Origin: Spirosoma profusum
GTDB lineage: Bacteria; Bacteroidota; Bacteroidia; Cytophagales; Spirosomataceae
DNA: 64,000 nt
Direction: 5' to 3'
Assembly: GCF_014699005.1 (NCBI RefSeq)
Contig: NZ_JACWZY010000011.1
Span: forward strand, 124,001 to 188,000
Shown: positions 10,462 through 58,197 of the stretch, piece by piece
Numbering within the stretch: the stretch's first letter is position 1
Layout: the number at the start of each line of letters is the position of its first letter
The notes under the pieces: generated by a model
Seen by the model: only the letters and a program-made list of their open reading frames with translations
What the model was told of the DNA's origin: nothing
Databases searched by the model: none
Translations under genes and position numbers: made by a program

Positions 10462-12204
10462 ATGAATACATTACTACGTTACGCTCTGTTACTGAGTTTA
10501 TTACTGGCTCCATGTACTACGTTGCTGGCTCAGATCGGTATCAATTCGCCAACGGGTGTAAAACCGACCAACGATTTCGAAGTGTATACCCGTGGTAACT
10601 TTTTTGTTCAGCAGAAATATCGTTACGTTACAACCGACCCCAATGCCAGCATTAACAACCTAAGTTGCGTTTCACCGTCAGCGAACCTGACAGCGCTGGC
10701 CGGGATTTTAAAAGATCCCAACGGCGATGCGAACTACACACCCGGACTTAGTTATTCCTGTATTCAGACAGTTTATTTGGGAAGTATCGATTCCCAAACC
10801 CTGGCCGGTGGAGTTATAATAGGCATTGAACTCACCGTCGAAGAATTCGGTACCGATTCTGATGATCGTCTGCTTATCCATAATTCAGATAACAAAAGCG
10901 TTATCTACCCGCTGTCGGGCAGTGACTGGGCTGGATTGAAACTGATTGTTACTGGGACTACTGCCAGGTTTTCGTTCATAACCGACAATGATGCAAATGC
11001 GGGTTCTGGGTTTCGGATAAAGTGGCGGGCGCTTATTCAGGAAAATTCGGATCCTAATGCATTTATTGTCAACGCGTTTGGAAGTGGATTTTCGTTCGAT
11101 ACGTACAGAAGTTCCTTCCGGGCGGGTATGCTTAACCAAAGTCAGACCGGGGAAGGATTTTTCACCTTTGCAGCCGGTTATCAAAATGAGGTTTCAGGGG
11201 CGAGTTCAGCAGCACTGGGGCATCAAAATGACGTAGATGGCACCTCGTCAGTCGCATTAGGCAGAGACAATTTTGTCAATAATTCCGCGTTCGCTGCCAT
11301 CACGGCTGGAAGAAGCAATACGGCCATCGATGATTATTCCCTTTCAATGGGTGACAATAATCGAGCGGCTGGCGATGCTTCTCTGGCCCTGGGCAGGCAG
11401 AATTCTACATCGGCCGTGGGAGCCAGTTCCATTGGCTTGCAAAACCGGGCGCTTGGCGAAGCGGCTCTGGCACTTGGCGAATCTAATACGGCCATCTCGG
11501 CCAATGGTGTCGCCATTGGACTGAGTAACATCAGCCAGGGTATATCTGCGGTCACAATTGGTGAATCTAGCTCCGCGCTTGGGCAACGGTCGGTGGCGAT
11601 GGGGTATAAAGCATCCACCAACAACTTTGCTGGCGCGTTTATTTTAGGCGACAACAGCACCACGACCATCACCAGTACAACAGCCAATCAGTACACAGCA
11701 CGATTCACCGGCGGCTTCCGTATGGTTACTGCCGTCAATGGCTCAGGCGTACCCACGGCAGGCGTCTCGCTAACGGCGGGAGGTACGTCCTGGGCAACCC
11801 TTTCCGACTCGACCCGAAAAGAACTATTTCTCCCTATTGATGGACCCGATCTACTCCGGAAAATTAGTGGTATGAAACTCACTATGTGGAACTACAAAGG
11901 CCAGCGGGGCATCCGGCATTACGGACCGATGGCGCAGGAGTTTTTCAGTTTGTTTGGGCGTGATACGTATGGAACAGTCGGTTCAGATAAGCTGATAACC
12001 ACGCAGGATATTGAGGGCCTTACGCTGACGGCGGTACAGGCATTAGCACGTGAAAATGAGCAACTAAAAGCCGAAATAAAAGCGTTAAAAACCGAACGTA
12101 GCACCCAGGCAAATCGAATTGCACAATCCGAAAAACGACTGGACGCCCTAGAATCGATCTTACTGGCGAAACGGCAACGTAGCGCTTACCGGGTAGCGCG
12201 ATAA
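10462..12204 (+). CDS. YadA-like head repeat protein with endosialidase-chaperone (S74) domain, copy 2
   Basis: A 580-residue paralogue of the gene just upstream, with the same order: signal peptide (ending LLAQ), N-terminal domain (NDFEVYTRGNFFVQQKY), head repeats (SVALGRDN, SLSMGDNN, SLALGRQN, ALALGESN, GVAIGLSN), S74-like domain with LSDSTRKELF and WNYKGQRGIRHYGPMAQEFF, and a final coiled coil. The head has diverged while parts of the S74-coding DNA are identical to copy 1, which suggests gene conversion. The two probably form related or mixed trimeric fibres. Whether the Ser-Asp pair still cleaves is untested. An inverted repeat follows the stop codon. Confidence 0.85.
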   Translation: MNTLLRYALLLSLLLAPCTTLLAQIGINSPTGVKPTNDFEVYTRGNFFVQQKYRYVTTDPNASINNLSCVSPSANLTALAGILKDPNGDANYTPGLSYSCIQTVYLGSIDSQTLAGGVIIGIELTVEEFGTDSDDRLLIHNSDNKSVIYPLSGSDWAGLKLIVTGTTARFSFITDNDANAGSGFRIKWRALIQENSDPNAFIVNAFGSGFSFDTYRSSFRAGMLNQSQTGEGFFTFAAGYQNEVSGASSAALGHQNDVDGTSSVALGRDNFVNNSAFAAITAGRSNTAIDDYSLSMGDNNRAAGDASLALGRQNSTSAVGASSIGLQNRALGEAALALGESNTAISANGVAIGLSNISQGISAVTIGESSSALGQRSVAMGYKASTNNFAGAFILGDNSTTTITSTTANQYTARFTGGFRMVTAVNGSGVPTAGVSLTAGGTSWATLSDSTRKELFLPIDGPDLLRKISGMKLTMWNYKGQRGIRHYGPMAQEFFSLFGRDTYGTVGSDKLITTQDIEGLTLTAVQALARENEQLKAEIKALKTERSTQANRIAQSEKRLDALESILLAKRQRSAYRVAR

Positions 12205-12253
12205 GTCAACATGAATAATGGATTAATTGGCCAGTTAACTAACTCTTTTACAG

Positions 12254-12370
12254 AACGTTGCTGACGCGCGGGACTTCGACAGGCTCAGCCTGACAAACCA
12301 GTTTGAGTCAACAAATTCAAGTATACTGTCAGGCTGAGCCTGTCGAAGCCCCGCGCGTCAGCAATACGTT
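12254..12370. repeat. Long inverted repeat with CGACAGGCTCAGCCTG core, copy 1
   Basis: Left arm 12254-12295 pairs with right arm 12327-12370 over more than 40 positions with only a few bulges, around a 31-base loop. The arms contain the core CGACAGGCTCAGCCTGAC flanked by GCTGACGCGCGGG. The same core occurs in the inverted repeat at 28669-28780, but with different arm ends. It lies between convergent genes (S74 copy 2 and the sigma factor) and may terminate both. Confidence 0.88.
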
Positions 12371-12396
12371 AATTTATAGCCTGGCCAGGCTACAAC

Positions 12397-14831: not shown

Positions 14832-15148
14832 TGTACTTGATTAGTTAGGGTGATTAATTGGTTTTCGTCACTAAGACGAATGAGAATGCCCAAATCGGAC
14901 ACGCATCTGAAAAAAATTCAAAAATTTTCTGAGTCGTTTTTGTCATACTGACGAAGGAAGCATCTTAGGGTACCCTTGACCTCATGTATTGAGACCTTAA
15001 ATGCTTCCTTCGTCAGCATGACAAAAAAAACTTACTCGAAACGTTAAACAACTTCCGAGTAAAAACATCGCTGTACTCGCATTTTGTATTTGAATTGTAC
15101 CATCATTCAGCAGAACAATTCAGGTTTAACCCATACCCGTATGCGACC
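14832..15148. other. Intergenic region between the DGPF gene and the hybrid sensor
   Basis: This 317-base divergent gap carries the promoters of two genes and one long hairpin (14937-15026). Short A/T-rich runs flank the hairpin on both sides. I see no convincing TAnnTTTG box. A 54-base in-frame extension of the sensor gene from a TTG at 15095 is possible but unlikely, because the ATG at 15149 gives a proper signal peptide. Confidence 0.6.
14937..15026. repeat. Long inverted repeat of the TTTTTGTCAT family
   Basis: Left arm from 14937 reads TTTTTGTCATACTGACGAAG and continues to about 14965; the right arm, about 14997-15026, ends CAGCATGACAAAAA. Pairing is close to perfect apart from a two-base internal mismatch. 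The loop contains a second short complementary pair (AGGGT / ACCCT). The head sequence matches the inverted repeat at 20652-20772. Confidence 0.82.
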
Positions 15149-18100: not shown

Positions 18101-19318
18101 AATGCGTTCAAGTTTACTCCGGCTGGCAGCACCATTTCGGTACGTCTGCAACAGGATTTTACTAGCAATGGTATTGAGAAAGCCATTATCATCATTGAAG
18201 ATGCGGGCGTGGGAATTCCAGCCGGTGATTTAGACCACATTTTCAACCGATTTTATCAGGTCAATCAGGCCAAAACACGCGATTCCGGATTTGGGCTTGG
18301 TTTGGCCCTCAGCAAAAGCATCGTTGAGCAACACAATGGGCAAATCACGGTAGAAAGTCAGGAGGCCGAGCGGGATAAATTGGGCTTTACGCGCTTCACC
18401 ATTACACTCCCGCTGCTGAGCAATACTTCTGATTCGATGCCTCCCTCAGCCCAATCGACGGTCCTTACTACGTTGCCGTCTTTGGTAACGGAAACGGCGT
18501 TTGAGTCAACAGATGATACGTTGCTGGAAACACAGGTTAGCACGATCGCGGATAAACCGCTGCTGATGATTGTAGAAGATCAGGCAGATATTCGCGTCTA
18601 CATTCGGGAGTTGTTTTCACGAACGTACCAGATTATTGAGGCTCAAGATGGTCTGGAGGCCTGGGAAAAGGCTTCGCAACTGTTGCCCGATATCATTATT
18701 ACCGATGTGGCGATGCCGTTTATGGATGGGTTAGCCCTGACACAGCGCCTAAAGTCGGATGAACGTACCAGTCATATTCCGGTGATTTTGCTCACGGCCA
18801 AAGATACCGTGGATAACCAGTTAGCAGGTCTGGAAATCAGGGCCGATGACTACGTAGCGAAACCGTTTCACCCTATGCTGCTTCAGGCTCGCGTAAGGAA
18901 TTTGCTTCGGCTACGTCAGCAGTTAAAAGCGAAGTATCACCGAATCGTTTCCCTACAACCTGAAGCCCCAGAACTGGATCACCCCGACGAAAAATTCCTC
19001 CGGCAACTGATGACCTTACTGAATTCACACCTTTCCGACGCTGATTTCAACGTAACGAGCCTGGTTAGCGAAATGGGTATGAGTCGGCCGGTTCTGTTTC
19101 GGAAAGTAAAAATGCTGACGGGTTTATCGGTTATTGATCTGCTACGTACTACGCGGCTCAAGAAGGCGGAACTGTTGTTAAAACAGAAAAAAATGAGCGT
19201 GGCCGAAGTTGCTTTTTCCGTTGGCTATAACGATCCTAAATATTTCAGCCGTGCCTTCCGCGCTCAATTTGGTCAAACGCCTACGGAGTATATTCATCAA
19301 CTGGCAGAGTCGGTTTAA
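15149..19318 (+). CDS. Hybrid two-component system sensor kinase / response regulator with AraC-type output
   Basis: A 1389-residue one-protein two-component system of the Bacteroidota HTCS type. In order: signal peptide; a periplasmic double propeller of Reg_prop repeats with recurring LWVGT or LWIGT-GLN strands (about 15260-17200); a Y_Y_Y domain; one membrane helix (AYALYVVIFVILLRLW); HisKA with the phospho-acceptor in AHEIRTPLTLV (about 17750); HATPase_c with N, G1 and G2 boxes (NLLLNAFKF, DAGVGI, GFGLGLALS); a receiver domain with the acceptor Asp in IIITDVAMPFMDG; and a C-terminal AraC HTH. Such proteins sense oligosaccharides in the periplasm and switch on the adjacent PUL. A TTG at 15095 is an alternative start. 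Confidence 0.95.
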   Translation: MSFTKTILFSGLWAVYSFSLRPVAVCQSELQTFSHLSVEEGLSQSSVYAITQDTKGFMWFGTRDGLNRFDSHRVAVYNTQGSKKNSLPSNTINGLLVDKRGQLWVGTSRGLTRYRPLQDDFERISFADSRVATLPDSNITSLFEDHQQQLWVGTLHGLYRLHPKNPNQYQPIKTLTKNPLDLSKAYIRTIYQDREHTLWVGTSAGLTRLRPMKSGQFQLTNYFLAPADSIYHDVSNGVNAIAEDQSGRLWVGTERKGIAIFDKRTGHVVSWHPAAGLDLSMQTVRTIQPDGKGSFWVGTMSGLYIIAQDGNRFKTLTNQPADPGSLSDNSIRSLFQDRDGSFWVGTYYGGVDMYSPLARQFGSFRPLDRLGGMPFKIASSILPAQNPRQLWLGTEDKGLLLVNNNQTIARHFKHDPKNAQSLSNDKVKCLLADGTKGLWIGTIKGLNYLDVRRQVITQFLHEPTNPRSLPNDRIYDLKRDKQGTLWVAINQGGLCRYDPITRSFVSLVHQASQKTSLSANSITTLLIDSQGALWVGTMGGLNRKMDGKDEFIRFIHRDDDATSISSNHISCFFEDQYHRLWIGTRDNGLNLLLPDGRTFKHITSKQGLPSNSVMGIQEDSRGWLWISTDKGLVQFDPQQESFIRYNKNDGLICKEFTPNSTYQDTRGYLYFGGYNGIVRFHPDSIRRNNKAPLLAFTQLRLFNEQVTNLPSGQSPVVFDDKQGLTFTHRQNVFSLDFAAFNFINSAKNRYAYKLLGFDNDWNYVSEPRALYMNLEPGDYVLQVKGANNDEVWARKPLELVITVLPPFWKTYWAYALYVVIFVILLRLWSGFNRSRMRLAHELEVEHLEKNRQQELHQTKLNFFTEIAHEIRTPLTLVIGPLETLTERYVDEPFIQKQVAVMRNSTDRLLRLLNQLLDFRKHETGNVQLHRQQTDVVVFLRTITDSFLDYARSRQITLTNESEVATLFAWIDAGEMEKVIYNLLLNAFKFTPAGSTISVRLQQDFTSNGIEKAIIIIEDAGVGIPAGDLDHIFNRFYQVNQAKTRDSGFGLGLALSKSIVEQHNGQITVESQEAERDKLGFTRFTITLPLLSNTSDSMPPSAQSTVLTTLPSLVTETAFESTDDTLLETQVSTIADKPLLMIVEDQADIRVYIRELFSRTYQIIEAQDGLEAWEKASQLLPDIIITDVAMPFMDGLALTQRLKSDERTSHIPVILLTAKDTVDNQLAGLEIRADDYVAKPFHPMLLQARVRNLLRLRQQLKAKYHRIVSLQPEAPELDHPDEKFLRQLMTLLNSHLSDADFNVTSLVSEMGMSRPVLFRKVKMLTGLSVIDLLRTTRLKKAELLLKQKKMSVAEVAFSVGYNDPKYFSRAFRAQFGQTPTEYIHQLAESV

Positions 19319-19325
19319 TGGCTGG

Positions 19326-19396
19326 GACGCAGAGATACACAGAGATTTATCTGGAATTTCTCTGTGTATCTCCGTGTGTCTCTGTGCATCTCTGCG
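19326..19396. repeat. Inverted repeat of ACGCAGAGA/TCTCTGTG words between convergent genes
   Basis: The left arm (about 19326-19346, GACGCAGAGATACACAGAGA) can pair with two different right-side segments: TCTCTGTGTATCTCC (about 19359) or TCTCTGTGCATCTCTGCGTT (about 19379-19398). It lies just after the sensor stop codon and just before the GH88 stop codon, so it may act as a terminator for both. No strong T-tract is present. Confidence 0.75.
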
Positions 19397-19405
19397 TTAC
19401 AACAT

Positions 19406-20620
19406 TTAAAACAACTTCTTTTTTTCGTTTAGCTTTTTAGCCCGCAACAGTGCTTCCAGGAAATAATAATCGGCGTAGATAATTGGAACGTCTACTTCGC
19501 TGTTCTGCGGTTTTGACCCTGTGCTGTGCAACAGTAAAAATCCGTGACTCTGCCCTACCGGTGCCAAATAATTCTTAGCCAGATTAGCAATAACCTGATC
19601 AGCCTTCTGACGATAATGAGCGCCATTTGCACTGTATGTACTCAACTCGTATAATCCAGATGCCATAATCGTAGCGGCCGATACGTCGCGCGGCTCGTTG
19701 GGAATGCCTGGCGCATCGAAATCATAATAAGGAACCAGGTCAGCGGGCATGTGCGGATGGTTGAGTAAGAATTTAGCGACGGCTTCCGCATGTTTCAGAA
19801 ATTGCGGGTCACGAGTTTCGCGGTAGCAGAGCGTGTAGCCATACAATCCCCAGGCTTGTCCCCGCGCCCATGCCGACTCGTCATTGTAGCCCTGGTGCGT
19901 ATTTTTCTTCAAAACTTTGCCCGTTAACGTATCGTAATCCACTACGTGAAAGGAGCTATTATCGGGCCGGTAATGGTTTTTCATCGTCGTGCGAGCGTGC
20001 GAAACAGCGATCTTGTAATACGTTGAGTCGCCGGTCAGTTGGGTAGCGGCAAAGAGCAGTTCCAGATTCATCAGATTGTCTATAATAACCGGACATTGCC
20101 ACTGATCTTTATGATGATCCCACGAGCGGATAATGCCCGCAGCCGGTTTGAAACGCTTAATCAGGGTTTTGGCTCCCTGAATGATGACATCCCGATACAT
20201 ATTGTCGCGCGTCAGTCGATAGCCATTGCCATAACTACAATAGAGTTTAAAACCCATGTCGTGGGTAGTGGCATTCATCTTCTCGTTTTCGAGCTTTGCC
20301 ATGGATTGTTTTGCCTGCTCAGCCCAGCTTTTTTGGCCCGTATACTGATAAAGAAACCACAATTCGCCAGCGAAAAAACCGCTTGTCCAGTCGCGGGCGG
20401 ACACTAGTTGGAGCGTTCCATTGGCATTTAACGATCGGGGCGATACCGGCACCGGTTTTTTATCTGATGTCGCCTGACTGGCCGCTGCTACGTCCGTCAG
20501 CAAAAGCTTCGTTTGTTGCTCGGCGCGTTTGAACAGATTTTCAATCAGCGAATTAGGCACAAAGCTTATTGAAAAGACCGAGAGAATCAGTAGTATGAAT
20601 GCAGTTTTAACGATTTGCAT
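19406..20620 (-). CDS. Glycoside hydrolase family 88 (unsaturated glucuronyl hydrolase)
   Basis: A 404-residue secreted or periplasmic enzyme with a signal peptide (MQIVKTAFILLILSVFSISF). Motifs of GH88 are visible: WTSGFFAGELWFLYQYTG, then HDMGFKLYCSYGNGYRLT, then IRSWDH with CPVIIDNLMNLELL (catalytic Asp region), then GYNDESAWARGQAWGLYGYTLCYRETRDP. The (alpha/alpha)6-barrel enzymes remove the 4,5-unsaturated uronic acid left at the non-reducing end by polysaccharide lyases. This fits the two lyases of the same locus. Convergent with the sensor kinase and followed upstream by the lyase at 20790 on the same strand, with a long hairpin between them. Confidence 0.93.
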   Translation of the reverse strand: MQIVKTAFILLILSVFSISFVPNSLIENLFKRAEQQTKLLLTDVAAASQATSDKKPVPVSPRSLNANGTLQLVSARDWTSGFFAGELWFLYQYTGQKSWAEQAKQSMAKLENEKMNATTHDMGFKLYCSYGNGYRLTRDNMYRDVIIQGAKTLIKRFKPAAGIIRSWDHHKDQWQCPVIIDNLMNLELLFAATQLTGDSTYYKIAVSHARTTMKNHYRPDNSSFHVVDYDTLTGKVLKKNTHQGYNDESAWARGQAWGLYGYTLCYRETRDPQFLKHAEAVAKFLLNHPHMPADLVPYYDFDAPGIPNEPRDVSAATIMASGLYELSTYSANGAHYRQKADQVIANLAKNYLAPVGQSHGFLLLHSTGSKPQNSEVDVPIIYADYYFLEALLRAKKLNEKKKLF

Positions 20621-20651: not shown

Positions 20652-20772
20652 GCTTTTTGTCATACTTTTTTGTCATTCTGAGGAACGAAGAATCTTATAT
20701 CCTCCTAACGCTCAGGTGAGGATACCTTAAGATTCTTCGTTCCTCAGAATGACAAAAGCCAGCATGACAAGA
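20652..20772. repeat. Long inverted repeat of the TTTTTGTCAT family
   Basis: The central stem pairs 20669-20698 (TGTCATTCTGAGGAACGAAG and on) with 20727-20756. A further outer pairing joins GCTTTTTGTCAT (20652-20663) with ATGACAAGAAAGC (20764-20776), around short internal loops. It lies between the GH88 and lyase genes, which point the same way. It shares its head and core with the repeat at 14937-15026. Confidence 0.85.
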
Positions 20773-21971: not shown

Positions 21972-22285
21972 TAGAGTAAAATGGAGAGAAGAAAAACGAG
22001 CAGTGTGATGAGCAGCATAAGCGACCCAGCTTCAGCCAATGTTAGTGTAAATCTGTCTTTTTTCACCCGTTCCGATCTGTTACTATTTATCAATGCAAGT
22101 TTAGGGACAGGCGATCTCTGCATGGTTATAGCAATTGCTCAAAAAGGAGGACAAACCGTTCAGGCAGGTGAAAGAACGTTCAAAGGGGTGGACGAAGCGT
22201 TCAATTTAGATTATTCCGTTATTTTTTATTCACATGGCAATTAATATTGCTTCATCGGGCAATAGTTAACCAACCCTTTATTGCT
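21972..22285. promoter_or_regulatory. Divergent control region between the lyase and susC-like genes
   Basis: This 314-base gap must hold promoters for both the lyase (left) and the SusC-SusD operon (right), and probably the binding site of the hybrid sensor. The right third is AT-rich (22200-22250). The words GAACGTTCAAAG (about 22175) and AAGCGTTCAATTT (about 22196) form an imperfect direct repeat spaced about two turns apart, a candidate for AraC-type half sites. No TAnnTTTG box is evident. A short open frame exists here but has no recognisable protein. Confidence 0.45.
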
Positions 22286-25200
22286 ATGTGTAAACGTTTA
22301 TTAACCAAATTTCTTAACTGGACACTTTTTGGCTGGCTGGCAATCGTCCTGCTGGCAGGGGGCCATGTGCTGGCTCAGGCGAGTGGACAGGCGCGACCAA
22401 CGTACCGCTTTTCCGGTCGGGTGCTCGACGAAAAAGGCGCTGGTCTCCCCGGCGCGACTGTGGTATTGAAAAACGATGCCAAAACCGGTACTACGTCCGA
22501 CGCCGACGGCAAATTCACAATCAATATCCCAACTGGTGGCGGTACGTTAGTGGTATCGGCAATTGGCTACCTAGGGCAGGAAGTGAATGTAACGAGCGAA
22601 ACCACGCTCGACGTAACGATGGCGCCCGACGTAAAAATTCTGAACGAGGTCGTTGTGGTCGGTTATGGTACACAGAAAAAAGAAAACCTGACCGGAGCTG
22701 TGGCCGCTATCACCATCGACGACAAAATCTCAAGTCGCGCCATTGCCAACGTATCGTCGGGATTATCCGGGCTGGTGCCGGGGCTATCGGTGCAGCAATC
22801 GACTGGTCAGGCGGGGCGCTCCGGGGCCGCGCTGATTATTCGGGGGTTAGGTACGGTGAACAATGCGGGGCCACTGATTGTGGTGGATGGGATGCCCGAC
22901 GTGGACATCAACCGGATCGATATGAACGACGTAGCAAGTATTTCGGTGCTGAAAGATGCGGCTTCGGCATCGGTTTATGGCTCGCGGGCATCCAACGGTG
23001 TGGTGCTGATTACGACCAAAAACGGTTCGCAGAACAAGAAAGCGCAGATTACGTACACTGGTACGTATGGCCTCTCGCAACCGACCAATTTCTACAATTA
23101 TTTCGCCGATTATCCGCGTTCGCTGACGATGCATTTGCGCGCTTCGGGGGCTGGTGCTTCTTCGACAACGTATCGGTATGGCACCATCGAAGAATGGCTT
23201 TCCAAAGGTCTGGTCGATCCAATTAACTACCCAAATACCGACTGGTGGAAAACGATTCTGCGCGATAATGGGCGTATTCAGACGCACAATATATCGGCTG
23301 CGGGTGGCAACGACAAAATGAATTTCTACCTCTCAGCGGGTATTTACGACGAATTGGGCGTGTTGATCGAGCACGATTATAAGCGCTACAACACGCGTTT
23401 CAACCTGGATTACAAAGTTCGCGACAACCTCAAAGTCGGTATTCGGATGGATGGCCAATGGTCGAAGCAGAAGTTCGCCAACTCTGAGGGGTTGATTACG
23501 TACACCGGTACCGCGGGTTATGACATTCGCTACGCTGTTGCGGGCATTCTTCCGCAAAATCCGAATACCGGCCAATATGGCGGCATCATGGCTTATGGCG
23601 AGGATGCATTTGCCCGGAATATGCTCTCGCTGTTCGAGATCAACCACAACTTCCGCGATCGACAGGAAATCAACGCCAACCTGTACAGCGAATGGACGCC
23701 CATCGACGGCCTGACGCTACGTGGTGACTACGGGCTACGTTATTACAACCAGTTTACCAAAAGTTACTCCGACCCAACCGACGAGTGGAATTTCCAGACC
23801 GGCCTGATTTCACGGAACGTAGTGGCCGCCAGCGCTGGTGTTAGTAACAGCACCAATCAGGGCTACAAAACACTGCTTCAGGGCCGTGCTACGTATAACA
23901 AAACCCTGTTTGGCAACCACCAACTCAGTTTATTAGCCGCCTATACCGAAGAATACTGGTTCAACCGGAACCTGTCCGCCAGCCGTCAGGACCGGATTAA
24001 CCCGCTTCTGAGCGAAATCGACGCAGCCTTGACGACGACTCAGGCCGCTGGAGGTAACTCCGATGCGGAAGGTTTGCGGTCGGCAATTGGCCGTATCAAC
24101 TACGTAGTGAACGACAAATACTTGTTTGAAGTCAACGCGCGCTATGATGGGTCTAGTAAGTTCCTGCCGGGTTTCCAGTATGGCTTCTTCCCTTCCGCTT
24201 CGGCGGGCTGGCGATTCTCCGAAGAGTCATTTTTCAAGAAATTCTCTTCAGTTGTATCGTCGGGTAAACTGCGAGCTTCGATTGGGAAACTGGGGAACAA
24301 CTCGGGCGTAGGTCGCTATGAGCAGCGCGATATCTTCAACCTGACAAACTACATTCTCAACGGGAAGATTGTGAAAGGGTTCAGTTCGGCCAAAATCATT
24401 AACGAAGACTTCTCCTGGGAGGAAACCAACGTAACGAACCTCGGGCTGGATCTCGCATTCTTCGGCGGTCGGTTGACAAGCGAACTTGATTTTTACAACA
24501 AGCTGACCACTGGAATGATACGTCCGTCGTCGCTGTCGTCGTTTCTGTCAGGTTACAATGCTCCGCGCGTCAACATCGGCAAACTTCAGAATCGGGGCAT
24601 GGAACTCAATCTGACGTATCGTGCCAAAGTGCGCGACGCCAACGTGGGTGCTACGTTGAACTTCGCTTACAACAAGAACAAATTGCTGGAGTGGAACGAG
24701 TTTCTGGGCAAGGGCTTTACGTACCTGAACCTCCCCTATCACTTCGCCTACAGCCGCGTATCGACGGGAATCGCTCAGAGTTGGGAAGATATTGCCAACG
24801 CACCGTTTCAGGGACAATATTTTTCGCCGGGTGATATTCTCTACAAAGATTTAAATGGAGACGGTCAGATTACCGATGAAGACCGTTTGGCACAACCGCA
24901 ATACAATCGCGACCAACCGCTGGCTACTTACGGCCTGAATCTGTTCGGCAACTGGCGTGGCTTCGACATAAGCATTCTCTGGCAGGCTGCCACTGGACGT
25001 AAAGATTACTGGCTGGAACCGTTCAACCAGGTAAACGTACCATCGACCCGGAATGCCTTCCAGGATTTTCACTGGTACGACACCTGGACGCTGGATAACC
25101 GCACGGCTTCATTACCGCGTTTAAACAGCGGATCGGGAGGCAACAACCAGGGTGAGTCAACTTTCTGGCTGGATGATTTCAGCTACCTGCGGCTCAAAAA

Positions 25201-25414
25201 TATTCAGGCCGGGTATAACATTCCGAGCAAATTCCTGAGCCGCGTGGGAGCGAGTCGGTTACGTATCTATTTCACGGCAGAAAACCTGCTCACATTCACG
25301 AAATATCGGGGCGTCGATCCTGAGAAAAGTACCAGCGTGCAGGATGCCGAGAATAACGACGACCCATTTCCGCTGCTCAAATCGTACTCTTTCGGCCTTA
25401 ACCTAAGCTTTTAA
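22286..25414 (+). CDS. SusC/RagA family TonB-linked outer membrane protein
   Basis: A 1042-residue TonB-dependent transporter. The chosen ATG gives a signal peptide (MCKRLLTKFLNWTLFGW to VLAQA); a TTG at 22247 upstream does not. Next come a carboxypeptidase-D regulatory-like domain (FSGRVLDEKGAGLPGATVVLKN, about residues 40-115), the SusC signature NEVVVVGYGTQKKENLTGAVAAI, a plug domain, and a 22-strand beta-barrel ending in YSFGLNLSF. It imports oligosaccharides across the outer membrane together with SusD. It heads the operon SusC-SusD-lipoprotein-lipoprotein, whose 27-base gap to SusD indicates one transcript. Confidence 0.97.
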   Translation: MCKRLLTKFLNWTLFGWLAIVLLAGGHVLAQASGQARPTYRFSGRVLDEKGAGLPGATVVLKNDAKTGTTSDADGKFTINIPTGGGTLVVSAIGYLGQEVNVTSETTLDVTMAPDVKILNEVVVVGYGTQKKENLTGAVAAITIDDKISSRAIANVSSGLSGLVPGLSVQQSTGQAGRSGAALIIRGLGTVNNAGPLIVVDGMPDVDINRIDMNDVASISVLKDAASASVYGSRASNGVVLITTKNGSQNKKAQITYTGTYGLSQPTNFYNYFADYPRSLTMHLRASGAGASSTTYRYGTIEEWLSKGLVDPINYPNTDWWKTILRDNGRIQTHNISAAGGNDKMNFYLSAGIYDELGVLIEHDYKRYNTRFNLDYKVRDNLKVGIRMDGQWSKQKFANSEGLITYTGTAGYDIRYAVAGILPQNPNTGQYGGIMAYGEDAFARNMLSLFEINHNFRDRQEINANLYSEWTPIDGLTLRGDYGLRYYNQFTKSYSDPTDEWNFQTGLISRNVVAASAGVSNSTNQGYKTLLQGRATYNKTLFGNHQLSLLAAYTEEYWFNRNLSASRQDRINPLLSEIDAALTTTQAAGGNSDAEGLRSAIGRINYVVNDKYLFEVNARYDGSSKFLPGFQYGFFPSASAGWRFSEESFFKKFSSVVSSGKLRASIGKLGNNSGVGRYEQRDIFNLTNYILNGKIVKGFSSAKIINEDFSWEETNVTNLGLDLAFFGGRLTSELDFYNKLTTGMIRPSSLSSFLSGYNAPRVNIGKLQNRGMELNLTYRAKVRDANVGATLNFAYNKNKLLEWNEFLGKGFTYLNLPYHFAYSRVSTGIAQSWEDIANAPFQGQYFSPGDILYKDLNGDGQITDEDRLAQPQYNRDQPLATYGLNLFGNWRGFDISILWQAATGRKDYWLEPFNQVNVPSTRNAFQDFHWYDTWTLDNRTASLPRLNSGSGGNNQGESTFWLDDFSYLRLKNIQAGYNIPSKFLSRVGASRLRIYFTAENLLTFTKYRGVDPEKSTSVQDAENNDDPFPLLKSYSFGLNLSF

Positions 25415-25440: not shown

Positions 25441-27210
25441 ATGAAAAAACTCTTTAAACTATATCTGCTGCTGGGTCTAACGATTTTTGCAGCCGCCTGT
25501 ACCGAAGATTTGCTCGATCAGGTACCTACGACGCAGCTTTCGTCGGATTTATTCTGGAAAACGACCGACGATGCCCTTTTTGCCGTCAACGGCGTGTACG
25601 ACGCAAACCGAACTACGTTCGACCGGGATTACTATTTCGATGGGGCTGGCGAATTTGTTCACACACGCGGCACCAGCAACAACCAGGGCACGTTTAACCC
25701 CGGACCGATTGGGTCTGCTACCGGCCCATTCATCGGAGCAAACGGAACACCGGCCAACACCGGCACCTTCAGTTTTCTGTGGGCCGACTGTTTCCGGACC
25801 ATCAACCGGGCCAATTACGTGCTGGAAAACATCGGTACGCTACGTGCCACTGCGAAAGCCCCCGCCGACGTAGCACTGATGAACCGGCTTGTTGGTGAGG
25901 TTCGTTTTTTGCGCGCGCTCAACTACTTCCGACTCATCGACTTATGGGGCGACGTACCGTTTTTCAACAAAAAGCTGGAAGGAAATCCGGAAGCCTACAC
26001 GTTGTCGCGGACACCCCGTGCAGTCGTGAAAGATTCGATTCTGGCTGATTTGAGTTATGCGGCCAACGTATTACCCGAAACCTACACGGGCGACAACCTC
26101 GGTCGGGCTTCGAAACTGGCAGCCTGGGCGTTTAGCGGCAAAGTGAATCTATATTGGGCCTGCTGGATGAAAACGGCCGGTAATGGTGCTGATGCTCAGA
26201 AACATTACACAGCCGCAGCCGCCGATTTCAAGAAGATTATCGACAAAAACATTCCACTTTTCCGTGGTGGCGAACCCGGCCCGGCCGACAACCCGAACTA
26301 CTGGCACCTGTTCCAGTATTTCAACGAATACGACCCCGAAATCCTCTTCTCAGTTCAGTTTGGCGGGCCGTTACTGAGTCAGGGCGAGGAACTCATGCGC
26401 GACTTTGGCACACGTAACACGGGCAACGCGCAATGCTGGGTAGCCCCAACGTATCGCCTGGCAAATCGGTATCAACTGCTGAGCACCGGCGATTTTGCAA
26501 CCCCGCTCGTTTTATCTCGCACCACGACTCTGGTTAACAGTGCTACAAACCCAAGATCCTACGTCGGTCGAGATTACCGGATGCGGGCCACCATGCTTTG
26601 GGATGAGCAAAAAATGCTACGTCTCTCGACTGATGGCCTGACCGTTCAGGATAGCATTCCGTACCGGTTCGGCAGCCGCGATGGTGTTACGTATATCAAT
26701 TACGATGGCGCACCAGCGGGCTATATTTTCCGGAAATGGGTACGGCAAACGGGTGGCATTGGACGTAGCGACGGGCCGCAGGACATTTACATGATGCGCC
26801 TGCCCGACGTCTGGCTGATGTATGCTGAAGCGGTTAACGAAGTGAATGGGGGCCCTACAGCCGAATTATTTACCCTGCTCAACCGCATCCGTCGTCGGGG
26901 TAATTTACCCGCGCTGGTGAACACTAAGTTTTCGACGAAAGCCGATTTTTTCAAAGCCATTGAACAAGAACGGATAGTAGAGCTGGTTGGCGAAGGGCAT
27001 CGTTTCTTCGACATCCGGCGGTGGCACAAAGCGGAAGAAATCTGGCCCGCACCTGGGGGCCAGGTTCTTTACGACTCGCAGGGCACCCGCATCCGCGACG
27101 AATTTGTAAACGCTCCTGATCGGAATTACCAGCGTTATTACATCTTCCAGATTCCAACCAGCGAAATCGAAGTAAACGCGAAAATCGTTCAGAATGAACC
27201 CTGGTTATAA
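25441..27210 (+). CDS. RagB/SusD family nutrient uptake outer membrane lipoprotein
   Basis: A 589-residue outer-membrane lipoprotein. The lipobox is IFAAAC, with the lipidated Cys at about residue 20. The SusD family hallmarks are DLLDQVPTTQLSSDLFWKTTDDALFAVNGVYD at the N-terminus, EVRFLRALNYFRLIDLWGDVPFF, and the C-terminal VELVGEGHRFFDIRRWHKAEEIW. SusD binds glycan at the cell surface and caps the SusC channel. It overlaps the weak upstream start of the next gene by 17 bases, but the better start of that gene is after its stop. Specificity for uronic acids is inferred from neighbours only. Confidence 0.97.
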   Translation: MKKLFKLYLLLGLTIFAAACTEDLLDQVPTTQLSSDLFWKTTDDALFAVNGVYDANRTTFDRDYYFDGAGEFVHTRGTSNNQGTFNPGPIGSATGPFIGANGTPANTGTFSFLWADCFRTINRANYVLENIGTLRATAKAPADVALMNRLVGEVRFLRALNYFRLIDLWGDVPFFNKKLEGNPEAYTLSRTPRAVVKDSILADLSYAANVLPETYTGDNLGRASKLAAWAFSGKVNLYWACWMKTAGNGADAQKHYTAAAADFKKIIDKNIPLFRGGEPGPADNPNYWHLFQYFNEYDPEILFSVQFGGPLLSQGEELMRDFGTRNTGNAQCWVAPTYRLANRYQLLSTGDFATPLVLSRTTTLVNSATNPRSYVGRDYRMRATMLWDEQKMLRLSTDGLTVQDSIPYRFGSRDGVTYINYDGAPAGYIFRKWVRQTGGIGRSDGPQDIYMMRLPDVWLMYAEAVNEVNGGPTAELFTLLNRIRRRGNLPALVNTKFSTKADFFKAIEQERIVELVGEGHRFFDIRRWHKAEEIWPAPGGQVLYDSQGTRIRDEFVNAPDRNYQRYYIFQIPTSEIEVNAKIVQNEPWL

Positions 27211-27643: not shown

Positions 27644-28639
27644 ATGAAAACGATAACACGTAGCGTTCTGCCGGTTTTTGGGCTTATTTTTCTGACGCTG
27701 AGCTGCAAAACCAAAGACGTAGCACCTGAAGCACTTCGAAATGATTTGCTAAAGAAAACGACCGGCCCCGCCGTAGTTGGTGACCGAATCGAGTTTGCCT
27801 ATGCCATCGGCACTACCGAAGGTGACCTGAAAAATGTTAAGGCGGAAGCATCCATCGTTGGCGGAACCGGCACCGGATTTACCCGTTTTTCCTGGTTTAC
27901 CAACCGCAACACGGGTGTCGATCAGCCGGTTCAAACGGCCGCCGATACCATCACGAATGGAGCCACGTCAACGGCCAATATTATCGACGTAGCAACCAAC
28001 AAAGCGGTAACGCTACGTTATTATTACTACCCCACTGAGGAAGCTAAAGGTAAAGACGTTACGTTCCGATTCAGCGGAACGTCCTCAACGGGTAAAGAAG
28101 TTAGCTTTCAGTCGCCTGCTTATCGAGTTAGCCGCATGGACATGAAACGGTCGCTGGCGCTGGTCGATGGGGCAAAAGCGTACGTATCGATTGCCGACAT
28201 GGCCGTGTACACGAAAGCGGAGGTCGAGCAGAACAATCTGGCGAACAAAATCGACTTTATTTACATCTACCGGGCTACTCTCGGCACTGGCAATTTCGCT
28301 TTCGGACACGCGCTGGTGGCCCCTTCCAACGCTGATTATCTGAAAGACGTAACACTGCCAACCGGGCTGGCAAAACCGCGCACGCTCATCGACAAGCGCG
28401 TGGATGTGAAAGATGCGCAACTACGTAACACCACCGGTTTCGACGTTTATATTGACGACATCGACCTGCAACAAACCACCTTCCCCAATGCCGCCGATTT
28501 TGCCTACGGACTCACCGCCGATCAGGGCGCGTTTGTCAAAACAGCGGATGGTGCGTATGCGGCTTATGTCTACGTCAATTCAGTGAATAATACAGCTAAA
28601 TCAATGACGATCAGCATTAAGCGATTGAAGTTAAATTGA
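27644..28639 (+). CDS. PUL-associated lipoprotein (DUF4466-like)
   Basis: A 331-residue lipoprotein with lipobox LTLSC at about residues 17-21. The body is a two-part beta protein: AYAIGTTEGDLKNVKAEASIVGGTGTGF near residue 60 and a second half with IDFIYIYRATLGTGNFAFGHALVAPSNADYL and KRVDVKDAQLRN. I think this is the DUF4466 family found in Bacteroidota PULs, based on memory of those motifs. It is 19 bases after the previous gene and closes the SusC operon before a 50-bp perfect inverted repeat. Likely surface-exposed; role in glycan capture is inferred. Confidence 0.65.
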   Translation: MKTITRSVLPVFGLIFLTLSCKTKDVAPEALRNDLLKKTTGPAVVGDRIEFAYAIGTTEGDLKNVKAEASIVGGTGTGFTRFSWFTNRNTGVDQPVQTAADTITNGATSTANIIDVATNKAVTLRYYYYPTEEAKGKDVTFRFSGTSSTGKEVSFQSPAYRVSRMDMKRSLALVDGAKAYVSIADMAVYTKAEVEQNNLANKIDFIYIYRATLGTGNFAFGHALVAPSNADYLKDVTLPTGLAKPRTLIDKRVDVKDAQLRNTTGFDVYIDDIDLQQTTFPNAADFAYGLTADQGAFVKTADGAYAAYVYVNSVNNTAKSMTISIKRLKLN

Positions 28640-28668
28640 TTTTTGACTTACAGAAAAAGTAAGTTAAC

Positions 28669-28780
28669 GTATTGCTGGCGCTTAGGGCTTCGACAGGCTC
28701 AGCCTGACAGGTAACTTGATTTAATGGATTCAAGTTACCTGTCAGGCTGAGCCTGTCGAAGCCCTAAGCGCCAGCAATAC
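28669..28780. repeat. Perfect 50-bp inverted repeat with CGACAGGCTCAGCCTG core, copy 2
   Basis: Left arm 28669-28718 and right arm 28731-28780 are exact reverse complements over all 50 bases, around a 12-base loop. The core CGACAGGCTCAGCCTGACA also occurs in the repeat at 12254-12370. The outer part (GTATTGCTGGCGCTTAGGG) and the inner part (GGTAACTTG) differ from that copy yet pair perfectly here. It separates the SusC operon from the PL8 gene. Confidence 0.95.
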
Positions 28781-28842
28781 ACTGTAGATCAATGAATTAA
28801 TTACTACATAAATATAACTCACGTTAAGCTGAGCAACTTCAA

Positions 28843-31029
28843 ATGAGTAAACAGTCCATTTACAGACTCATAGCATTGCTATTGATTGGTATTAATACGT
28901 TGGCCCAATCGACGAATACCAGTAGTCAAGCCTTGAACGATGTTAAAATCATCAAAGAGCGGATTGTGGCCGACCTAATGGCTACAAAAATCAGTGATAG
29001 TCAGGTGGAAAGTATTCTCGCTAGGATGAATAATGACGGCAGTTTCCAGGGTATAAACTACGAAGACCTCAGCCGAACAGCCGGTTTTCCACACGGTAGG
29101 CATACGCAGGATCTAGTTTATCTGGCCAAAGCGTACAAAAGCAAATCGTCGAAATATTACCAGAACAAACAGCTCAAGGAACGTATCATCAGCGGTCTTG
29201 ACTTTTGGGTGAAGCATGATTTTGTGGGCGACAACTGGCATGATAACCAGATTACAACCCCCACTAATCTGGGAAATCTGATGCTGATCATCGGAGAGGA
29301 ACTTCCCAAAGAACTAGTCACAAAAGCGCAGCCGATGATCGGTCGGGCCAACATGAACGCGTCGGGCGCTCGACCAAGTGGAGACCGGATTGTAATTGCC
29401 GGGATTTTGGCCAAAAACCTGCTTTTTATGGGTGATTATCAAGAGTTTGATAAAATCATCCAAATCATCGAAGGCGAAATGAAATTCGCGACGGGCGAGC
29501 GAGGGTTACAGCACGATTATAGTTTTCACCATCGGGTAGACCGGGTCAATAATACGTCCTCGTATGGCTACGGGAAATTCGCCAATGCTTACGGCGACTG
29601 GTCGTACTACGTAGCAGGTACTACGTATGCATTCTCGAAAGAGAAAATAAATCAACTGGTTGATTATTACCTGGATGGCATCTATAAACAAATGGTTTAT
29701 GGCATTTACGAAGATATTAGTGTCAAGAACCGAAGCATCTCTGGAAAGTCTACGTTTCACCCGCAAAGCACACTTGAAATAGAGCGAGTATTAGTTAGTA
29801 CAGACTATAGAAAAGCAGAACTGGAAGAAATCATCCGGCTACGTAAAGGCGAAAGTAAGCCCTCAGCCTCCTTCGCTAAATTCTTTTGGCAAAGCGAACA
29901 TTTCGTCGTCCAACGACCTCAGTTTTACACAACGGTACGTATGTTTTCGACGCGAAATCGAAACATGGAAGAACCTTATAACGGACCGGGCAAAACCACG
30001 CATCACCGCGCCGACGGCACCAATTACCTAATGCTCAAAGGTGATGAGTATCACAATATCTGGCCTGTATACAACTGGCAAAAAATTTCGGGGACAACCA
30101 TTGTACAGAAGCCCCAGCTACCCGGCCCCAATGAAATCCAGAAAGCTGGATTAACCGATTTTGTGGGAGCAGTTACCGACGGTTTATACGGTGCCGTAGT
30201 CTTTGACTTTAAAAGCCCACACGATCCGCTGGAAGCCAAAAAATCATGGTTTTTTTTCGATAACGAGTACGTTTGTCTGGGCACTGCGATTAAATCAAAT
30301 TCTGATTTACCTGTATTCACGACCGTCAATCAGGTTTTAATGCATGGCGATGTACGCATGATGCAGGATGGTGCGCAGAAAAGCGTTCCAAAAGGCAGCC
30401 GAACCCTCGACAAGGTGAAATGGGTGTACCACGATAGAATAGGCTATATCTTCCCCCAACCAACCACCATCAACGTATCCAATCAGGCCGAAACGGGGCG
30501 CTGGTCGGATATTACAGATCAAAAAAACATTAGTAATGAACTAGTTAGCGAAGACGTCTTCTCGCTGTGGTTCAACCACGGCAACAAACCAAATGGGGCT
30601 TCTTATCAGTGTATTGTCGTACCTGCCGTGACAGAACAGCAAGTGGCTGAGACTGCTGCCACCAACCGTTCCATCGACATTCTTTCCAATACGCCTGACC
30701 TACAGGTAGTCAGGCACAACCAGTTGGGGATTATTCAGTTAGCCTTTTACAAAGCAGGAGCCATAAACGTAGAGAAAGGCATAGCCGTAAGCCTGGACAG
30801 CCCAGGCATGGCCATGCTGAAAATGAACGAAGGGCGACTAAGCGAGTTAACCTTGTCCGATCCCTCCAGAAAGTTGAGCCAAATTTCATTTTCGGTGACT
30901 GGTAAATACAAGGCGAAGGGTGAGAATTACCGTACTGAAGTCGATGAAATTAAAAATAGTACGCTCTGTATTGTTGATCTACCTCAGGGCGTCTATGCCG
31001 GGAAAAGCGTTACTATAAAGGTTGAATAG
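28843..31029 (+). CDS. Polysaccharide lyase family 8 (chondroitin AC / hyaluronate / alginate lyase-like)
   Basis: A 728-residue secreted lyase. The signal peptide is MSKQSIYRLIALLLIGINTLAQ. The N-terminal alpha/alpha toroid (about 30-350) has the PL8 layout: NWHDNQITTPTNLGN (catalytic Asn region, 131-145), HDYSFHHR (catalytic His, 224-231), YGYGKF (catalytic Tyr, 241-246), and NRSISGKS (296-303). The C-terminal beta domains carry NMEEPYNGPGKTTHHRADGTNYL. PL8 enzymes depolymerise hyaluronan, chondroitin, xanthan or alginate. In the chondroitin lyases the last motif usually reads R-x-I-S-R; here the second Arg position is Gly, so specificity may differ. GH88 at 19406 would process its unsaturated products. 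Confidence 0.9.
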   Translation: MSKQSIYRLIALLLIGINTLAQSTNTSSQALNDVKIIKERIVADLMATKISDSQVESILARMNNDGSFQGINYEDLSRTAGFPHGRHTQDLVYLAKAYKSKSSKYYQNKQLKERIISGLDFWVKHDFVGDNWHDNQITTPTNLGNLMLIIGEELPKELVTKAQPMIGRANMNASGARPSGDRIVIAGILAKNLLFMGDYQEFDKIIQIIEGEMKFATGERGLQHDYSFHHRVDRVNNTSSYGYGKFANAYGDWSYYVAGTTYAFSKEKINQLVDYYLDGIYKQMVYGIYEDISVKNRSISGKSTFHPQSTLEIERVLVSTDYRKAELEEIIRLRKGESKPSASFAKFFWQSEHFVVQRPQFYTTVRMFSTRNRNMEEPYNGPGKTTHHRADGTNYLMLKGDEYHNIWPVYNWQKISGTTIVQKPQLPGPNEIQKAGLTDFVGAVTDGLYGAVVFDFKSPHDPLEAKKSWFFFDNEYVCLGTAIKSNSDLPVFTTVNQVLMHGDVRMMQDGAQKSVPKGSRTLDKVKWVYHDRIGYIFPQPTTINVSNQAETGRWSDITDQKNISNELVSEDVFSLWFNHGNKPNGASYQCIVVPAVTEQQVAETAATNRSIDILSNTPDLQVVRHNQLGIIQLAFYKAGAINVEKGIAVSLDSPGMAMLKMNEGRLSELTLSDPSRKLSQISFSVTGKYKAKGENYRTEVDEIKNSTLCIVDLPQGVYAGKSVTIKVE

Positions 31030-52321: not shown

Positions 52322-52415
52322 AACGTAACGGTTTATAAGCCGATAAGACGGGCTTTTTTACCGTTACGTTCCTTACCAACGTATTGATGACGATCCAATC
52401 GTCATCAATACGTTG
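52322..52415. repeat. Two adjacent hairpins upstream of rpsP
   Basis: Hairpin 1 pairs AACGTAACGGT (52322-52332) with ACCGTTACGTT (52360-52370); inside it AAGCC pairs with GGCTT, so a nearly continuous stem with internal loops is possible. Hairpin 2 is an 18-bp perfect stem, CAACGTATTGATGACGAT (52377-52394) against 52398-52415, with a 3-base loop. They lie between the hydrolase gene (leftward) and the rpsP promoter. The first may terminate the hydrolase transcript; the second has no T-tract. Confidence 0.8.
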
Positions 52416-52461
52416 AAAATCAGACATATACTTGATTATTCAATCCATAATTCACGTTACC

Positions 52462-58115: not shown

Positions 58116-58197
58116 TGTAAAGAGTGAAAGCGCGAAAGAATGAAAGAGCGTGTAGAACGGGACGCTCTTTCATTCTTTCGCGCTTTCACTCTTTACA
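58116..58197. repeat. Perfect 36-bp inverted repeat before the dCMP deaminase gene
   Basis: Left arm 58116-58151 and right arm 58162-58197 are exact reverse complements over 36 bases, around a 10-base loop. The arms are built from AAGAGTGAAAG and GAAAGAATGAAAGAG words. It lies 6 bases after the lipocalin-like stop and 17 bases before the chosen start of the deaminase gene, so the leader of that mRNA would be occluded if read through. Confidence 0.95.

Follow-up and report, generated by a model that had tools for sequence, protein, structure and literature searches.

The window examined here is the whole stretch of 64,000 nt of Spirosoma profusum that was analysed (GCF_014699005.1, contig NZ_JACWZY010000011.1, positions 124,001-188,000 of the forward strand). 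It contains a PUL operon on the + strand, encoding a TonB-dependent receptor (22247-25414), a SusD protein (25441-27210) and a DUF4466 protein (27644-28639), and, on the same strand, a family-8 polysaccharide lyase gene (28843-31029). A long hairpin lies at 28669-28780, and the gene order confirms an earlier note on this DNA, which had placed it between the PUL operon and its lyase gene. That note described exactly complementary arms of 50 bases around a 12-base loop; the complementarity and the 112-base span hold, but the lengths do not, as the arms are 51 nt long, 100% complementary, and separated by 10 nt. The features of the locus are as follows:

28645..28825, no strand: MITE copy, probable extent, left end inferred
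28669..28719, + strand: left arm of the perfect inverted repeat, from arm comparison
28682..28684, + strand: variable triplet of the left arm, TTA
28688..28709, + strand: REP-like unit, the conserved 22-nt core in the left arm
28720..28729, no strand: 10-nt loop remaining after the extended pairing of this copy
28730..28780, - strand: right arm of the perfect inverted repeat, from arm comparison
28740..28761, - strand: REP-like unit, the conserved 22-nt core in the right arm
28765..28767, - strand: variable triplet of the right arm, TTA on this strand

Folded as DNA, positions 28645-28825 give -74 kcal/mol, against a mean of -16.6 (sd 2.83) for 200 shuffles, and the perfect stem of 51 is the longest among the 41 copies compared, the second longest being 46. 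The right terminal repeat of the MITE is recognisable with 5 mismatches, while the left end has decayed and is positioned solely from the 43-nt spacing seen in the family. Matches of the hairpin to Rfam microRNA families (mir-999, with a score of 60.4 against a cut-off of 58, and mir-580) are judged false, since several unrelated families of this kind match, on both strands, as with any long hairpin; an animal microRNA precursor is not what lies here.

The window harbors a second copy and a related remnant:

12208..12391, no strand: second MITE copy, probable extent, right end inferred
12258..12295, + strand: left arm of the second copy, from arm comparison
12327..12364, - strand: right arm of the second copy, from arm comparison
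52377..52458, - strand: related remnant, with terminal repeat and hairpin

The second copy, sited between convergent genes with ends at 12204 and 12397, has a recognisable left terminal repeat at 12208-12225 (3 mismatches to the TIR pattern) and a decayed right end placed by spacing. Its arms are 38 nt long and 97% complementary. Its loop, at 12296-12326, is asymmetric, and that of the 28669 copy is almost a palindrome. The recurrence of the core here, reported earlier at 12254-12370, is real, and so is the difference between the two sites in their outer and inner arm segments, both of which pair perfectly at 28669; at 12258 the outer segment pairs with one mismatch and the inner segment is unpaired. 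The 22-nt core occurs four times in the window and not once in any of 100 shuffles. The remnant combines an IS982-type terminal repeat (52441-52458, 2 mismatches) with a perfect 18-bp hairpin (52377-52415) that is similar to the outer arm and has no core; both of its hairpin arms are altered alike (TTGATGACGAT). Several other hairpins are also present in the window. Two, at 14932-15032 and 20668-20757, are of a TGTCATnCTGA type, and no IS982-type ends were found next to them at 4 mismatches. Those at 788-875 and 19308-19416 have AACCGCAAAGACCGCTAAG- and CGCAGAGATACACAGAGA-like arms and represent other repeat types beside genes, and at 58116-58197 purine-rich arms of 36 bp, perfectly inverted around a 10-nt loop, form a repeat unrelated in sequence to the 28669 hairpin family.

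Throughout the genome the core pattern matches 92 times at up to 3 mismatches, 45 forward and 47 reverse. We examined 47 places with this core, together with four of another core (L078-L081) that are not counted among them. The set compared consists of 41 two-armed hairpins, the places set aside being L041, L053, L064 and L067, which lack a second arm at 5 mismatches, L069 (a collapsed palindrome) and L054 (another core type); L042 was also excluded from the analysis of flank and loop similarity and from the G.U test. All 41 hairpins are mutually different. Among the 36 genomes of the genus, an extended pattern (up to 3 mismatches) matches S. profusum alone and none of the 35 congeners, and an exact two-armed pattern with the GGGTGACA core was found in 0 of 36. 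In an even sample of 390 genomes across the order, a wider pattern (up to 1 mismatch) matches seven, from 3 of 130 genera and all from one and the same family. The exact two-armed core pattern matches only 2 loci of one other assembly in a species-representative collection searched for exact matches, and nothing among viral contigs. A Cytophagales MAG, RDXN01, also carries these hairpins and appears, from its identical contig coordinates, to be genome G410 of sister genus g6. No mention of four 14-nt core strings was found in a literature text search. The earlier note had named one sign of the simple insertion of a fixed unit, the recurrence of the same 112 bases at unrelated places in other genomes; no such recurrence was found, the 41 hairpins here all being different and the exact core pattern turning up elsewhere only at those 2 loci. 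In genome G036, a segment GACCGCACCGGCGGACCGGC lengthens the outer arm on both sides of two hairpins (L128 and L139), and in two more (L125 and L131) the arms reach into flank sequence seen at that site alone (ATTTGAAGAAAA in L131), a hint that copying between arms can take in the flanks as well.

The flanks of the hairpin are asymmetric, with one short and one long side, each terminated by AACGTGAATTATGGATAA-like repeats, and AACGTGAATTATGGATAA also forms the ends of resident insertion sequences (IS). Such ends are found on both sides, at up to 5 mismatches, at 21 of the 47 places; the other 26 have one or both ends unrecognisable, and among these is the 28669 copy, with one recognisable end and no visible target duplication. 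The elements so bounded are 161-203 bp long, mostly 170-186 and typically about 183, which leaves no room for a gene. Exact 4-6-bp target duplications accompany 10 of the 21 two-ended places, against a chance mean of 1.12 and a maximum of 5, and none of 2000 partner shuffles reaches 10. The same ends flank a 1008-bp IS (contig C22) and a 1025-bp IS (C9). The former encodes a 296-aa IS982 transposase (NF033520, 198 bits, cut-off 130), and the genome holds four IS982 transposase matches above the cut-off. With shared terminal repeats and target duplications both present, the copies belong to an IS982-type MITE. Two elements, L206 and L214, have both such ends and ACGT duplications and carry another hairpin type inside, which the window hairpins at 14932-15032 and 20668-20757 resemble. 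In the sister genomes, IS982 has no match in G134, which has about fifty copies, or in G410, and is matched only below the cut-off in G262; where a G134 element is missing from G262, the site is not cleanly empty, as about 34 other bases occupy it. The earlier note had held that the arms reflect more than the insertion of a fixed element. Their change is borne out, but the hairpin has been inserted too, within an IS982-type MITE of about forty copies, and insertion does not exclude arm copying.

Each arm has the layout TTGCTG-n-CGC-NNN-GGG-core, and pairing between the arms stops at -16. There is in addition a pairing within the arm, of the two bases before the core with two near its end. It holds in 155 of the 156 unique arms, with the combinations GC/GC (68), GG/CC (51) or CC/GG (36); the L119 hairpin joins arms of two types, each of them self-consistent. 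The covariation within arms is well established, but what it means for structure is less certain: a single arm folds weakly as DNA, at -1.6 to -4.4 kcal/mol, and the arm hairpin predicted for GG/CC arms is built from bases other than the covarying pair. Judged from these patterns, each arm is a REP-like unit with its own small covarying stem, and the whole a REPIN-like inverted pair within an IS982 MITE. As in REPINs, two conserved palindromic units are inverted to form a long hairpin. The reverse strand of the core carries TGTC, and the published stem features of CGTC families are not matched. No RAYT transposase was found in the S. profusum genome. There are five Y1 matches (PF01797), the best two being IS200 (158 and 147 bits), with REP-transposase scores of 29 and 28 against a cut-off of 80, and the DNA adjacent to the Y1 genes L082-L085 shows no core at up to 6 mismatches; a Y1/RAYT origin of the repeats was rejected on these two grounds. 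Mean pairwise identity is only 0.665 in the loop and 0.586 in the flanks, and the conservation of the core against this background points to constraint.

The variable triplet at -6 to -4 is the same in both arms in 39 of the 41 S. profusum copies, whereas re-dealing the right arms gives a mean of 4.4 and a maximum of 12. In two sister species, for which 75 places less 7 without a second arm leave 68 hairpins (12 of them without an assignable TIR side), the triplets agree in 49 and are unequal in 19, the shuffles giving a mean of 7.4 and a maximum of 19. The triplet generally consists of any base, a base other than G, and a purine; among 156 arms, the second position is G in 2 and the third a pyrimidine in 5. 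Elsewhere in the outer arm (TTGCTG, -10, CGC and GGG), the S. profusum copies show 20 one-arm and 33 both-arm deviations. The 22-nt core has 42 one-arm changes against 4 in both arms, so that copying in the core is either rare or its products are removed; as only 0.56 both-arm changes are expected by chance, copying has marked the core too, though in few places.

Inheritance of the triplet by kinship was considered and rejected, as in S. profusum it has no significant correlation with the similarity of flanks (Mantel r 0.006, p 0.46) or loop (r 0.115, p 0.08). Among 43 close sibling pairs drawn from 28 elements, and selected on flanks and loop rather than on arms, differences per site amount to 0.298 in the triplet, 0.024 in other arm bases, 0.050 in the loop, and 0.032 and 0.094 in the flanks. 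Both triplets differ in 15 of 17 pairs with an inverted loop and in 9 of 26 with the same orientation, the pairs being non-independent, with L294 and L303 in 13 of the 17. Relative to the flanks, loops in S. profusum are oriented 21 to 19 with 1 undecided (n=41, weak assignments included), or 15 to 7 in the 22 clearest copies, and in the sister species 26 to 17, with 25 of 68 unassigned. The triplet is a hot spot within the arm, and our guess is that, in a branched fold, it would mark the point where the arm hairpins join the outer stem.

The sister species G134 and G262, from another genus, share eight sites by flank BLAST (from 20 and 55 loci), five of which are comparable. L321/L271 was set aside with an arm deleted in one species, and L322/L299 and L314/L261 with different hairpin subtypes at the orthologous sites; the ends are shared in L322/L299, and both pairs look like the outcome of conversion by another copy, or of two insertions into a single target. 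The five hairpins include two with an inverted loop, one both-arm switch, one with unequal arms retained and one that has hardly changed. In L327/L308 the site, target duplication, flanks and loop are common, with one loop difference, and one hairpin carries the triplet TTG twice, once per arm, where its counterpart carries AAG twice. The loop is reversed in L330/L282, with equal arms in one species and unequal arms in the other, and also in L324/L279, where the G/A at -10 has swapped sides too; as this base moved with the loop, the exchange lay outside -10. L319/L273 retains its triplet and has one arm different at -15, and L316/L275 has the same orientation and arms that are unequal in both species. 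Homogenisation of arms and inversion of the spacer, which mark template-switch hot spots, are therefore both found at orthologous sites. Copying appears not to be continuous, as indicated by L316/L275, by the 19 unequal triplets in the sister species and by the balance of changes in the core. Arm copying in place, as first proposed from the 28669 hairpin, is supported as a process of the family, by the sister species and the shared triplets here. For locus 28669 itself this stops short of a direct test, the best flank match in the genus being 79% and no relative close enough to compare having been found, and the complementarity of locus-specific sequence was insufficient by itself to imply such copying, the comparison of sister species being needed.

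We regard it as probable that the hairpin makes up the interior of a non-autonomous IS982-type MITE with a REPIN-like dimer, spread by the IS982 transposase, whose arms are kept alike by arm-to-arm copying with loop flips. Matching ends and target duplications suggest that the transposase would act on the terminal repeats. The arms could meet by strand fold-back at the replication fork, or by exchange between them. One arm would serve as template for the other, erasing differences and passing a new base or triplet to both at once, and an exchange that crosses over would flip the loop. The sequences of the sister species bear footprints of such copying and flipping, and the enzymes are a matter of deduction; fork template switching and RecA-type recombination cannot be told apart. 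Some further constraint would hold the core sequence. The main competing explanation, which we consider unlikely, is compensatory evolution of a transcribed hairpin under selection (as terminator, mRNA end or protein site), each arm change being matched in the other arm. It draws support from the conserved core and from gene context, since gene 3' ends are where most copies are found: 19 are between convergent genes, 19 in tandem and 3 divergent, against 4, 18 and 6 for the only 28 window gaps of at least 60 bases (Fisher p 0.009 for convergent, 0.14 for divergent). Such a distribution is compatible with a function as terminator or mRNA end, and also with nothing more than promoters being avoided. 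Compensation would not flip a loop, however, and loops have flipped in place in the sister species. Nor is there G.U enrichment on the sense strand of the 19 tandem copies, which have 6 G.U, 10 A.C and 7 other mismatches, albeit small numbers, and the two-base switch in both arms of L327/L308 would need four changes where the hairpins differ at one other place. As loop inversion is unexplained by selection on pairing, it argues for strand exchange between arms, as published for template switching (PMC8604942).

That arms were never altered in place, and that source elements with different triplets were inserted whole, is quite improbable. The element is mobile, some sibling groups have a common triplet (AAG in L300, L302, L306 and L308), and the differing subtypes at L322/L299 and L314/L261 fit replacement, but the triplet is not linked to flank or loop similarity, and L327 and L308 have site, target duplication, flanks and loop in common but not the triplet, which is different in either arm. 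A site-specific recombinase inverting the loop as a switch can hardly be credited: loops do invert, but arm sequences vary among copies, and the loop is 19-31 nt in most of them with no promoter or gene identified in it. Highly speculative, too, is a further reading built on the position of the triplet, which lies at the 5' foot of each REP-like stem, the place of the tag in REPs. The triplet would be an address that template switching can rewrite in the two arms simultaneously and that sets the partner or target of the dimer, with IS982 ends as a general vehicle for REP dimers lacking their own transposase; two dimer types are found within the same IS982 ends.

A literature search pairing IS982 with 'repetitive extragenic palindromic' found nothing. 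Cardinium also belongs to the Cytophagales. Its MITECca01, an IS982-derived MITE of about 240 bp, is likewise short and non-autonomous with the ends of a resident IS982, although the passages describing it mention no REP dimer or hairpin (PMC9769881). REPINs, as outlined in PMC3116915, are inverted REP doublets with a less conserved spacer that form a long hairpin in which compensatory changes are common. The present family is alike in its two conserved inverted units, spacer and long hairpin, and differs in that no RAYT gene was found, the units lie within IS982-type ends and copies number about forty. Of the GTAG/CGTC-tagged REPs, PMC3733652 reports Bacteroidetes to have CGTC repeats, for which it knows of no dedicated transposase. 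The other strand of the arm starts with TGTC, given there as a variant of the CGTC tag, and dimers and placement between convergent and same-direction genes are common to both, whereas the stem and loop sizes and the A-T stem start do not fit the four CGTC families it describes.

Template switching at short inverted repeats, with arm homogenisation, spacer inversion and multi-base compensatory changes, is already known, the cases reported in the accounts cited being yeast genes and RNA genes (PMC8604942, PMC8794818). The same three signs are present here, in a dispersed bacterial MITE with dozens of parallel sites and a triplet hot spot. What is new is the composite of IS982 and REP dimer and the many-locus record of arm copying. 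Perfect covariation is usually taken as selection on RNA structure, and because the loop flips as well, this family provides many parallel loci at which arm copying by DNA exchange is separable from selection. It also offers, in the IS982 ends, a carrier for REP-like dimers, of interest for the CGTC-tagged REPs described as having no known dedicated transposase (PMC3733652).
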